Assembly (NCBI RefSeq): GCF_002887595.1
Contig: NZ_PEBU01000002.1
Coordinates: forward strand, 620,001-684,000
Source of the DNA: Bowmanella denitrificans
GTDB lineage: Bacteria > Pseudomonadota > Gammaproteobacteria > Enterobacterales > Alteromonadaceae
Direction: 5' to 3'
Length of the DNA stretch: 64,000 nt
Of this stretch, positions 42,119 to 46,361 are shown in pieces (within the stretch, counting starts at the first letter, position 1; every line of letters starts with the position of its first letter). The translations under genes and the position numbers were made by a program. A model generated the notes under the pieces. That model did no database searches. It was given only the letters and a program-made list of their open reading frames with translations, and had not been told where the DNA came from.

Positions 42119-43297
42119 CTAGCCTGGTACTCTTACCCAACCTTCCATCAGCACACGGGCACTGCGGCTCATAATGGCTTTGCTAACCTGCCATTGGCCA
42201 TCTTGTTGAATCGCCTCGGCTCCAACCCTCAAAATGCCGGATGGATGACCAAAGACCACCGCTTGTTTGTCATCGCCACCGGCAGCCTGATTAACCAATG
42301 TACCGGGAATGGCGGCTGCGGTGCCAATGGCCACGGCAGCGGTACCCATCATGGCATGGTGCAATTTGCCCATGGATAAGGCCCGTACCAGCAAATCAAT
42401 GCTGTCTGCGCTGACCGCTTTACCACTGGACGCCTGATAGTCTTTAGGCGGTGCGACAAAGGCAATTTTCGGGGTATGGGCGCGGCTGGCCGCTTGGCTG
42501 ATATCTTCAATCAGGCCCATTTTCAGCGCACCATAAGCGCGAATGGTTTCAAAGCGCGCTAGCGCTGCGCTATCGGCATTAATATCGTCCTGCAATTCGC
42601 TGCCGGTATAGCCAATATCCGCAGCGTTAACAAAAATGGTGGGAATACCGGCGTTGATTAAGGTAGCTGGAAAACTGCCGACGCCAGGCACATCCAACGT
42701 GTCGATAAGATTGCCGGTGGGAAACATTGCCCCGCCCTCACCGTCTTCGTCGGCGGCCGGATCCAGAAATTCAATCTGTACTTCGGCGGCTGGAAAGGTC
42801 ACACCGTCCAGTTCAAAATCGCCGGTTTCCTGTACTTCACCGTTACTGACTGGCACATGAGCAATGATGGTTTTGCCGATATTGGCCTGCCAGATCCGCA
42901 CTACACAATGACCATTGTGGGGAATACGATCGCTTTTGACCAACCCATTGCTGATGGCAAAGGCACCCACTGCGGCAGTGAGATTACCGCAATTGCCACT
43001 CCAGTCGATAAAGGGCTTGTCGATGGCCACCTGGCCAAACAGATAGTCCACATCGTGGTTGGCTTTGGTGCTTTTGCTTAAGATCACGGTTTTTGAGGTG
43101 GATGATGTCGCCCCGCCCATACCGTCGGTATGCTTGGCATAAGGGTCCGGACTACCGATGACCCGTAGTAACAGCGCATCCCGCTCCGCCCCAGGCACCT
43201 GCGCCGCCACCGGCAAATCATCCAACTTAAAAAACACGCCCTTAGAGGTACCGCCACGCATATAGGTGGCTGGAATACGAATCTGAGGCTTAAACAT
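42119..43297 (-). CDS. prpF: 2-methylaconitate cis-trans isomerase PrpF
   Basis: 392-aa isomerase converting the trans-2-methylaconitate-type product of AcnD into the cis form usable by aconitase. Recognised by PQIRIPATYMRGGTSKGVFF at the N-terminus and SGNCGNLTAAVGAFA. The ATG at 43297 has GGAG eight bases upstream; an apparent 14-residue extension is encoded by the upstream repeat and is not part of the protein. Last gene of the minus-strand prpR-prpB-prpC-acnD-prpF operon. Confidence 0.95.
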   Translation of the reverse strand: MFKPQIRIPATYMRGGTSKGVFFKLDDLPVAAQVPGAERDALLLRVIGSPDPYAKHTDGMGGATSSTSKTVILSKSTKANHDVDYLFGQVAIDKPFIDWSGNCGNLTAAVGAFAISNGLVKSDRIPHNGHCVVRIWQANIGKTIIAHVPVSNGEVQETGDFELDGVTFPAAEVQIEFLDPAADEDGEGGAMFPTGNLIDTLDVPGVGSFPATLINAGIPTIFVNAADIGYTGSELQDDINADSAALARFETIRAYGALKMGLIEDISQAASRAHTPKIAFVAPPKDYQASSGKAVSADSIDLLVRALSMGKLHHAMMGTAAVAIGTAAAIPGTLVNQAAGGDDKQAVVFGHPSGILRVGAEAIQQDGQWQVSKAIMSRSARVLMEGWVRVPG

Positions 43298-43317
43298 AAT
43301 AGACTCCAATTTATTCA

Positions 43318-43386
43318 ACCACAGAGACACAGAGGGCACAGAGGTTCAAAAATCTAAGCACTCTGTGTTCTCTGTGCCTCTGTGGT
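43318..43386. repeat. CCACAGAG/CTCTGTGG hairpin repeat E1
   Basis: 69-base element with inverted arms of ~26 bases (ACCACAGAGACACAGAGG left, complementary sequence ending CCTCTGTGGT right) and a 17-base loop. It lies between the prpF start and the prpF-acnD chimera, and would fold into a long RNA hairpin in the operon transcript. Confidence 0.85.
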
Positions 43387-43390
43387 TAAT

Positions 43391-43489
43391 TTAGGCTTTT
43401 TGGATTCCAGGAGGTTCTGGACAGGTCTCTGTAATATACAATCCGCCACGCATATAGGTGGCTGGAATACGAATCTGCGGTTTGAACAT
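43391..43489 (-). pseudogene. 32-codon prpF'-acnD' chimeric remnant
   Basis: A frame that starts MFKPQIRIPATYMRGG, exactly the first 16 residues of PrpF, then changes to a short unmatched stretch and ends with EPPGIQKA and the stop of an acnD-like 3' end (compare ESEKA at the AcnD terminus). Upstream bases 43490-43510 also copy the prpF leader, including the ribosome-binding site. The prpF part (43443-43510) is about 90% identical to 43251-43317; the acnD part (43387-43421) is more diverged. It looks like the scar left when a tandem acnD-prpF duplication lost its interior. Confidence 0.75.
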
Positions 43490-43510
43490 AATAGCTTCCA
43501 ATTTTCTTCA

Positions 43511-43665
43511 ACCACAGAGACACAGAGGGCACGAAAAATAGCAGGAGATCTTTCAATCGAGGCCTTCGCAATCTCAGCGTTCTCTGCGTCTCGTCGTTTA
43601 ATGAACTAATGTCTCTTACAGTAACAATACCTTCAACCACTCTGTGTTCTCTGTGCTTCTGTGGT
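43511..43665. repeat. CCACAGAG/CTCTGTGG element E2
   Basis: 155-base element beginning ACCACAGAGACACAGAGGGCAC, identical to the first 22 bases of E1, and ending CTGTGCTTCTGTGGT. Contains an internal degenerate CTCTGCGTCTCGTCG stretch, so it may be a nested or decayed copy. Lies upstream of the chimeric remnant. Confidence 0.75.
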
Positions 43666-43693
43666 TATCTATCATTCTGTTTAGATAAATTTC

Positions 43694-43762
43694 ACCACAG
43701 AGACGCCGAGGGCGCAGAGCGTTTAGTACTGGCTAGTCTGTATTCTTCTGTGCCTCTGTGGT
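43694..43762. repeat. CCACAGAG/CTCTGTGG element E3
   Basis: 69-base element, same length as E1, beginning ACCACAGAGACGCCGAGGG and ending GTGCCTCTGTGGT, five bases before the acnD stop codon. The left arm is partly decayed. Confidence 0.8.
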
Positions 43763-43766
43763 TAAT

Positions 43767-46361
43767 TTAGGCTTTTTCCGATTCCAGGAAGTCCTGGGCG
43801 AAACGCTGCAGCACGCCGCCCGCTTCATAGATAGACACTTCCTCGGCGGTATCCAGCCGGCATTTAACCTGCACTTCTTCACTGTGGCCGTTTTGGCGCT
43901 GCACTACCAACGTCAGCAGCGCACCGGGCTCACGTTTGCCTTTAACATCAAAGGTTTCGGTGCCATCAATGGCCAGCGTATGGCGGTTGGTGCCGGCTAA
44001 AAACTCCAGCGGCAGTACCCCCATACCAATTAAGTTAGTGCGGTGAATACGCTCAAAGCCTTCTGCCACTATAACTTCCACCCCTGCCAGGCGTACTCCT
44101 TTGGCGGCCCAGTCACGGGACGAACCCTGACCATAATCGGCACCGGCAATAATGCACAATGGCTGTTTACGCTGCATATAGGTTTCAATGGCTTCCCACA
44201 TGCGCGTTACCTTACCTTCCGGCTCAACACGGGCCAGCGAACCTTGCTTAACCTTACCTGCTTGGTCTTTGACCATTTCGTTAAACAGCTTAGGGTTGGC
44301 AAAAGTGGCGCGCTGCGCGGTTAAATGGTCACCGCGATGGGTGGCATAAGAGTTAAAATCTTCTTCCGGCAGGCCCATTTTGGCCAGATATTCCCCGGCA
44401 GCACTGTCCAGCAAGATAGCATTGGACGGCGACAGGTGATCGGTAGTGATATTGTCCCCCAGTACCGCCAGCGGTCTCATTCCTGTCAGGCTGCGCTGCC
44501 CGGCCAGCGCCCCTTCCCAATAAGGTGGACGGCGGATATAGGTACTCATTTCACGCCACTGATAGAGGGGATCAATATGGCTACCGTAGTCGACAGTTAA
44601 GTCGAACATCGGGTCGTAAACTTTGCGGAAATGCTCGGGCTTGACCGATTTGGCAATCACCGCATCAATTTCTTCATCACTTGGCCAGATATCCTTTAAG
44701 GTCACAGGCTTGCCTTGGGCATCCAGCCCCAGTGCGTCTTTTTCAATATCGAAGCGCACCGAACCGGCAATGGCGTAGGCAATAACCAGCGGTGGTGAGG
44801 CTAAAAAGGCCTGTTTGGCATAAGGGTGAATACGGCCGTCAAAGTTACGATTACCCGACAGCACCGCAGTGGCGTATAGATCGCGCTCGATAATCTCTTG
44901 TTGAATCTGTGGATCCAGTGCGCCGCTCATACCATTACAGGTAGTACAGGCAAACGCCACTATGCCAAAGCCCAACTGTTCCAGTTCCGGCAGCAAACCG
45001 GCTTCTTCAAGATACAGCTGCACCGCTTTGGAGCCTGGGGCCAGCGAGGTTTTCACCCAGGGCTTACGCACCAGGCCCATGGCATTGGCCTTTTTGGCCA
45101 GCAGACCAGCGGCAATCACATTGCGCGGGTTACTGGTGTTGGTACAACTGGTGATAGCGGCAATAATCACGGCGCCATCTGGCATTTTGCCTGACTCTTG
45201 CTGGTAATCAGCGACAATCCCTTTACTGGCCAGTTCATTGGTTGCCACCCGTGCATGGGGGTTAGAAGGCCCGGCCATATTGCGCACTACTGTGGCAAGG
45301 TCGAATGTCAGCACCCGTTCGTACTGCGCCTCGGTCATGCTGTCGGCCCACAGTCCGGTGGTTTTGGCATAGTTCTCCACCAGCGCGATTTGTTGGTCGT
45401 CACGGCCAGTCAGGCGCAAGTAGTCAATGGTTTGCTTGTCGATATAGAACATGGCCGCGGTGGCGCCATATTCCGGAGTCATATTGGAAATAGTGGCGCG
45501 ATCGCCCAGGGTCAGACTGGCTGCCCCGGCCCCGAAAAATTCCAGATAGGCCCCGACTACTTTTTCTTTACGCAGAAATTCGGTGATGGCCAGCACGATA
45601 TCGGTAGCGGTAATGCCGGGCTGTGGTTTGCCGGTTAGCTCAACGCCGATAATATCCGGTAAGCGCATCCAGGAGGCACGCCCCAGCATCACGCTTTCGG
45701 CTTCCAGGCCACCTACCCCGATGGCAATCACGCCCAGCGCATCCACATGCGGGGTATGGCTGTCGGTGCCAACACAGGTGTCGGGAAACGCGACACCGTC
45801 TTTAACCTGGATCACCGGCGACATTTTCTCCAGATTGATCTGGTGCATAATGCCGTTACCCGGAGGGATCACATCAACATTTTTAAATGCCGTTTTGGTC
45901 CAGTTAATAAAGTGAAAGCGATCGTCATTGCGCCTGTCTTCTATGGCGCGGTTTTTCGTAAAGGCGTCTTTTTCAAAACCGGCGTGTTCTACCGCCAGGC
46001 TGTGATCGACTATCAACTGGGTGGGTACTACGGGGTTAACTTTGGCCGGATCGCCGCCTTTTTCGGCGATAGCGTCACGTAAACCCGCCAGATCGACTAG
46101 TGCGGTCTGGCCAAGAATATCGTGGCACACCACCCTGGCCGGAAACCAGGGGAAGTCCAGTTCGCGTTTGCGCTGAATGATTTGGGTTAGAAACGCATTG
46201 AGCTTGGCCGGTTCGGCGCGTCTGACCAGATTTTCGGCCAGGACTTTGGCGGTATAAGGCAATTTGGCATAGGCACCAGGCTCAATGGCCTCCACTGCAG
46301 CCTGGGTATCGAAATACGCCAGGTTGGTGCCGGGCAATAGCTGTTTAAATTCGGTATTCAT
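43767..46361 (-). CDS. acnD: Fe/S-dependent 2-methylisocitrate dehydratase AcnD
   Basis: 864-aa aconitase-family enzyme dehydrating 2-methylcitrate in the methylcitrate cycle; works with PrpF in place of PrpD. The [4Fe-4S] ligands appear as AITSCTNTSNP and FACTTCNGM; the swivel domain has DYGQGSSRDWAAKG. Full length for AcnD. It sits between prpC and prpF with hairpin repeats in both gaps. Confident assignment, supported by prpF. Confidence 0.96.
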   Translation of the reverse strand: MNTEFKQLLPGTNLAYFDTQAAVEAIEPGAYAKLPYTAKVLAENLVRRAEPAKLNAFLTQIIQRKRELDFPWFPARVVCHDILGQTALVDLAGLRDAIAEKGGDPAKVNPVVPTQLIVDHSLAVEHAGFEKDAFTKNRAIEDRRNDDRFHFINWTKTAFKNVDVIPPGNGIMHQINLEKMSPVIQVKDGVAFPDTCVGTDSHTPHVDALGVIAIGVGGLEAESVMLGRASWMRLPDIIGVELTGKPQPGITATDIVLAITEFLRKEKVVGAYLEFFGAGAASLTLGDRATISNMTPEYGATAAMFYIDKQTIDYLRLTGRDDQQIALVENYAKTTGLWADSMTEAQYERVLTFDLATVVRNMAGPSNPHARVATNELASKGIVADYQQESGKMPDGAVIIAAITSCTNTSNPRNVIAAGLLAKKANAMGLVRKPWVKTSLAPGSKAVQLYLEEAGLLPELEQLGFGIVAFACTTCNGMSGALDPQIQQEIIERDLYATAVLSGNRNFDGRIHPYAKQAFLASPPLVIAYAIAGSVRFDIEKDALGLDAQGKPVTLKDIWPSDEEIDAVIAKSVKPEHFRKVYDPMFDLTVDYGSHIDPLYQWREMSTYIRRPPYWEGALAGQRSLTGMRPLAVLGDNITTDHLSPSNAILLDSAAGEYLAKMGLPEEDFNSYATHRGDHLTAQRATFANPKLFNEMVKDQAGKVKQGSLARVEPEGKVTRMWEAIETYMQRKQPLCIIAGADYGQGSSRDWAAKGVRLAGVEVIVAEGFERIHRTNLIGMGVLPLEFLAGTNRHTLAIDGTETFDVKGKREPGALLTLVVQRQNGHSEEVQVKCRLDTAEEVSIYEAGGVLQRFAQDFLESEKA

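Follow-up and report, generated by a model that had tools for sequence, protein, structure and literature searches.

A repeated prpF start in Bowmanella denitrificans as the probable footprint of a small site-specific insertion

Why should the start of prpF be written twice between an intact prpF and an intact acnD? In the 64,000-nucleotide stretch of Bowmanella denitrificans DNA analysed here (the window), the methylcitrate-cycle genes prpB, prpC, acnD and prpF run along the minus strand, and the gap between the last two holds a 32-codon open frame with its stop codon (43391-43489, minus strand), which reads MFKPQIRIPATYMRGGLYITETCPEPPGIQKA (Table 1). An earlier note on this DNA held that the frame begins with prpF codons, ends on the 3′ end of acnD, and has only one simple origin, namely a tandem duplication of acnD, repeat and prpF and then a deletion that reached from the early part of prpF into the late part of acnD. 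That reading is in part right, in that a stretch has been duplicated, but what is left is most likely the footprint of an insertion rather than of a collapsed gene duplication. Specifically, comparison with other genomes makes it probable that the copied prpF start, here called the stub, marks the place where a small element entered prpF in a site-specific manner, and that the insert was later replaced in the genome of the window. That genome is labelled G000 and forms, with G001 to G004, a set of five from its genus.

The copied parts are readily recognized. The frame lies between prpF and acnD as described, and its first 16 codons agree with those of prpF in residues. Together with its leader, the copied start (43443-43504) matches 43251-43312 at 92% over 62 nt, with an alignment score of 125 against 47 for the best of 500 shuffles, and the proposed likeness to the acnD 3′ end is found as a DNA match of 43391-43420 to 43767-43798 with three mismatches and a 1-nt gap (score 54; best of 500 shuffles, 30). 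Because of that gap, the frame of the stub coincides with the frame of acnD only over the last codons. The palindrome in the slot continues the stub segment, and another CACAGAG copy likewise continues acnD. What has been copied comprises the acnD tail, the repeat, the leader and the start of prpF, so the idea of a duplication stands to the extent that some duplication or recombination must have occurred. The filler matches nothing else within the window with up to three mismatches allowed.

Table 1. Parts of the prpF-acnD locus, in coordinates of the window.
Feature	Position	Strand	Remarks
prpF, intact (2-methylaconitate isomerase)	42119..43297	-	TIGR02334, 734.9 bits
Codons 1-16 of intact prpF, ending in ..GGCGG; putative restored start	43251..43297	-	
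Leader of intact prpF	43298..43316	-	ribosome-binding site read by eye
CACAGAG palindromic repeat, in the slot between stub and gene	43317..43387	-	one of many in the genome
Copy of the acnD 3′ tail, including the stop codon	43391..43420	-	
22-nt filler, adjoining the breakpoint	43421..43442	-	matches nothing else in the window
prpF-start stub, 16 codons to the breakpoint GGCGG	43443..43489	-	breakpoint common to six other genomes
Leader of the stub	43490..43509	-	
CACAGAG repeat copies and part copies between stub and acnD	43510..43766	.	family also arrayed elsewhere in the genome
acnD, intact	43767..46361	-	TIGR02333, 1770.2 bits

A stub that ends on the same base, immediately after ..GGCGG, precedes an intact prpF in six other genomes from three families (G001, G002, G034, G163, G109 and G454). 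The homology ends in ..GTGGCGG in all carriers (GGGGCGG in G109). In G000 as in these six, the breakpoint follows codon 16, within the 5′ coding region of prpF, and the spacing from stub to gene is 192 nt in the window and 192–207 nt in the carriers. Inspection by eye of the stretch from stub to gene showed no acnD tail in any of the six. A PrpF search of 59 genomes gave G001, of the window's genus, a second match, to residues 1–32, just upstream of prpF; a second match to the PrpF start was present in four of 30 fetched prpF loci (G000, G001, G002 and G034); and a start-motif search of 394 genomes of the order, which misses altered stubs such as that of G109, matched in 172, with a same-strand pair in G000 and G163 only. 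G163 belongs to a family other than that of the window, and G109, from a third family, and G454 were found through covariance and pattern searches. The stub is absent from G003 and G004, both of the window's genus, and G003 has the stub-free order acnD, repeat, leader, prpF. Two loci of other kinds may be recorded here: the acnD-prpF gap of G027 (L028) holds two copies of a different repeat (CAGGGCACGCCGT..GAAGGCCCTG), and a second, C-terminal PrpF fragment lies about 2 kb from prpF at G047:C1:1972681-1972917 (62% to residues 306–391).

It is informative to consider which of the two starts is the native one. Stub leader and intact-gene leader were each aligned, over 43 nt, with the native leader of an element-free congener. 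For G109, compared with G125, the stub leader matches at 39/43 (score 74) and the intact leader at 27/33 (score 21). The corresponding values for G163 are 36/41 (63.5) and 16/26 (15) with G305, and 36/42 (63) and 24/32 (17) with G360; for G454 they are 32/38 (44) and 19/30 (19.5) with G478, and 28/29 (38) and 25/30 (22) with G429. The congeners scored were all four of those fetched for G109 and both of those for G454. For G163, 16 genomes had been fetched, 15 from its genus and one from its family, and the four scored were picked after all 16 had been viewed. Because the stub leader fits the native leader of the congeners and the intact leader fits it worse, the stub in G109, G163 and G454 is best understood as the displaced native start; to judge by these alignments, intact prpF begins with insertion-supplied sequence in the three lineages that have an alignable element-free congener. 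The more distant relatives G048, G072, G092, G039 and G120 did not separate the two leaders, and G039 favours that of the intact gene (35.5, against 27 for the stub). In the window, both leaders are equally like the native leader of G003 (59/77 and 58/78), so the intact start there is not visibly foreign; the two leaders of G001 are also alike. Likewise, intact starts read MFKPQ in seven of the eight genomes listed, G000 included, and this is no mark of the element, since the element-free G004 and G092 read MFKPQ as well.

In all six carriers other than G000, the gap between stub and gene is occupied by a four-hairpin body followed by a segment, b′, that is the reverse complement of codons 15–19 of the species' own prpF. 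Body and b′ together measure 128 nt in G001 and G002, and both are present in G009, where the stub is absent. GGCGG stands on both sides of the insert in the prpF copies, with the inverse segment b′ internal. Across 11 aligned body copies, an alignment that was fitted to the model and so favours it, 93.3% of cells are paired, 35 of 43 pairs show changes on both sides, and the covariation is 0.636 against 0.07–0.16 (maximum 0.162) for slid controls. The first four sequences were aligned independently of the model, although the structure used for scoring was the fold of one of the four; 17 pairs carry double changes, where shuffling gave 8.2 on average. The match of b′ to its own prpF is 12/12 in G001, G002, G034 and G454, 11/12 in G163, 10/12 in G109 and 8/12 in G009. 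Beyond GGCGG itself, six species (G002 being left out as a congener of G001) give 37 of 42 matches, a total reached by one of the 720 possible assignments, which is the true one, although the b′ segments of G109 and of G009, taken singly, each tie with one other species' target. No Rfam family matched the window between 42000 and 47000 at the gathering threshold, nor L010, L011 or L014 at E≤1; a sub-threshold match to V_AS5 (55.3 bits, cut-off 96) lies downstream of prpF in G020 (L013:1359-1482).

These comparisons also bear on the suggestion in the earlier note that a chimeric peptide might still be made, for which they give no support. Past codon 16 the sequence varies among the carriers, only the congeners G001 and G002 being alike, and between those two it is body and b′ that agree best (121/128), against 36/47 in the stub and 963/1126 in the rest of prpF. 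A conserved chimeric peptide is ruled out by the differing sequences after codon 16 between lineages.

The window itself presents a different filling of the slot. Over the 64 kb, the model R2 finds neither body nor b′ at E≤10, and with its filters off it reaches at most 3.6 bits for the body in 42900-44000; the slot holds the 22 nt, the acnD tail, the CACAGAG hairpin and the leader. The 22 nt were considered as a remnant of the left end of the element and showed no likeness to it in six of six comparisons, with 202 to 982 of 1000 shuffles scoring as high. In a PrpF tree, G000 groups with G001 and G002 at 86/93 (below the tool's mark of 95/80), and G001 with G002 at 98/96; from this grouping, the insertion is most likely older than the split of the three. 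Because body and b′ are absent, because the slot has the acnD tail, repeat and leader as in G003, and because the leaders are alike, a later replacement of the insert would seem to have taken place, and the window is read as having carried the insertion on account of the shared breakpoint, the slot length and the phylogeny. The CACAGAG repeat is abundant in this genome: a 295-nt query that holds the palindrome gave 91 matches, its own place included (40 of 75 candidates were scored), and tandem arrays occur in the window (43310-43768), at C8:265510-266181 and C5:258349-258828, and on C14, C12, C10 and C13, with a period of 204–225 nt in five of six loci and of about 295 nt in C12. The arrays were also considered as carriers of gene ends and set aside: of the 20 loci fetched, six were run through a repeat search and portions of four were inspected by eye, with no gene end seen.

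The following course of events probably produced the locus. A noncoding element of about 190–207 nt would have entered prpF after ..CGT GGC GG (codon 16) in a common ancestor of G000, G001 and G002. The native leader with its 16 codons would have been cut off as the stub, and because the element brought a leader, a start codon and 16 codons of its own, PrpF would have stayed intact. The element would consist of the multi-hairpin body and then b′, the inverse of prpF codons 15–19, which may help to recognize or seal the target site. In G000, body and b′ would later have been replaced by the 22 nt, acnD tail, CACAGAG repeat and leader, probably through recombination with an element-free allele such as that of G003, joined illegitimately on one side, or through template switching, and the replacement would have been resolved on the repeated prpF start. 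The recurrent end of the stub at one base, its native leader in three lineages, the covarying body and the host-fitting b′ have direct support; the mobility of the element, the part played by b′ and the replacement step in the window are inferred.

The chief rival to this insertion and replacement needs no element at all. A single local duplication of about 170 nt, running from the acnD tail through repeat and leader to prpF codons 1–16, with 22 nt of filler, could have arisen where the CACAGAG palindromes caused replication slippage or template switching, in which case the shared breakpoint would be a coincidence or a fragile site common to these genomes. We regard this as a possibility of some weight, albeit a minority one. 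Collinearity of the two copies extends from the acnD tail through repeat and leader to the prpF start, the stub-free order exists within the genus in G003, the arrays elsewhere in the genome indicate that such duplications are common, and the window lacks the element body. In addition, such a 192-bp event yields the same product as the tandem duplication proposed earlier and does so without any large duplication, which is one reason why that origin is not the only simple one. However, the copy stops, at its 3′ end, on the exact base used by the element in G001, G002 and four more genomes, and in a 1.2-kb gene this is unlikely to be chance. As for a duplication of the whole of acnD, repeat and prpF followed by deletion, it does yield the observed order of parts, but it requires two large events, and where the earlier note looked to intact duplications in relatives, a search for prpF found one full copy, and no second, in each of the five genus genomes. 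It also leaves unexplained why six other genomes have this stub, cut at the identical base, with no acnD tail seen there and, in G109, G163 and G454, with the native leader of a displaced original start; we consider it very unlikely.

A further alternative is that stub and body form a cis-acting regulatory leader of prpF, perhaps one that arrived by insertion and was retained, in which b′ could pair with either GTGGCGG of the stub or codons 15–19 of intact prpF, the ribosome-binding site being enclosed, and the change between these two states would switch translation. The fit of b′ to the host's own prpF codons would suit such a role, as would the agreement of body and b′ between G001 and G002, which exceeds that of stub and remaining gene as if constrained, although a recent exchange of the segment between the two would account for the conservation too. 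Against it, the layouts at the 3′ ends of ettA and sdaA (described below) enclose a stop codon and not a start, the window copy is missing body and b′, and the distribution is very sparse, and we think a function of this kind very unlikely.

It is also worth considering where else such repeats occur. In G210, R2 picks up three units in tandem where ettA ends at its 3′ side (E 6.5e-23 to 3.1e-22, these copies having been among the rows used to train it). Weaker hits fall on the 3′ end of sdaA (L-serine ammonia-lyase) in G026 (E 0.0068) and G009 (E 0.0022), the G009 gene being named through the likeness of its translation to that of G026. The gene ends at these loci are duplicated (62/68, 46/54 and 53/70 in local alignment), and a b′-like inverse of the junction is seen by eye before the restored end. 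These layouts appear similar to that of prpF but less clean; in G026 the repeat overruns the expected breakpoint, and in G210 another partial unit precedes the outermost copy. Copies that lie, in the window's genus, upstream of a gene we take from its start to be asnB show no gene-end duplication by eye and look like ordinary insertions, as do five copies in G110. More broadly, R2 matches 44 of 369 genomes of the class, finds one to four copies, many of them diverged, in each of the five genus genomes, and matches weakly in G046 and G087. Exact core patterns were too strict, matching two stretches in genome contigs and four of 246 family genomes, one of these without prpF in its 3-kb locus. 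The idea that the genus carries the body in high copy was rejected, a search with the G001 insert having matched only G001 and G002 among seven genomes. If the weaker class hits are true relatives, gene-end rebuilding would be a minority habit of a wide repeat family. We hesitate to go further than a tentative proposal, which we rate as doubtful, of a family of noncoding mobile elements of about 200 nt in which a junction-complementary segment selects conserved gene ends and which carry the replacement end with them; if true, such elements would sit harmlessly inside metabolic and translation-factor genes.

Parts of this behaviour are familiar from other systems. SXT in prfC and the IMEs in dusA, such as IMEVchUSA3, replace the start of the gene on entry, and elements of this type carry an int gene (PMC8409611). 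Like them, the putative prpF element would enter the 5′ coding part of its gene, replace the start and displace the native one. SXT- and dusA-type elements are large, whereas the one proposed here measures about 200 nt, has a hairpin body and holds an inverted copy of the target junction (b′); the spacing of 192–207 nt between stub and gene is too short for an integrase gene. IS608, of the IS200/IS605 group, selects its target through a guide within the transposon DNA that base-pairs with the target site (PMC5934647); the guide is a tetranucleotide, against 8–12 matching bases across the junction for b′. By analogy, b′, which complements the junction of its own host, could work like that guide, although, unlike IS608, the prpF insert has GGCGG on both sides. 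Should b′ prove to serve in targeting, the prpF insert would represent a mobile element of very small size that is matched to its target, with a link between sequence and site that is open to test. Small repeats are usually assumed to survive by landing between genes; here, the repeat seems to enter a gene at a fixed base and to mend the damage, the true start being left as an apparent scar. Such footprints are readily mistaken for duplications or leader genes and can mislead the annotation of start codons and operons. A description of a noncoding element of about 200 nt that replaces gene starts was not found in a limited set of open-access literature, available in part.

Like MITEs, REP/REPIN and ERIC sequences, the repeat is short, noncoding, foldable and dispersed. 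We know of no MITE described as rebuilding a gene end at its target. A term search of one MITE review, in its available portions, gave nothing of the kind (PMC10969869). Terminal inverted repeats, a MITE trait, are seen by eye in G110 and in many class copies, among them many of the 29 class loci inspected (a few off-centre), whereas the prpF copies show GGCGG flanks and an internal b′ instead. The G110 copies (L117 and L120–L123) also have, by eye, short flanking direct repeats around CTAG, and these five similar copies are perhaps an active MITE of the same fold. Copies with the hairpin fold adjoin tRNA genes, again by eye, at L167 (G623:C1:508754-509241) and L183 (G762:C6:275-420), those of G623 forming a tandem array in steps of 113–122 nt.
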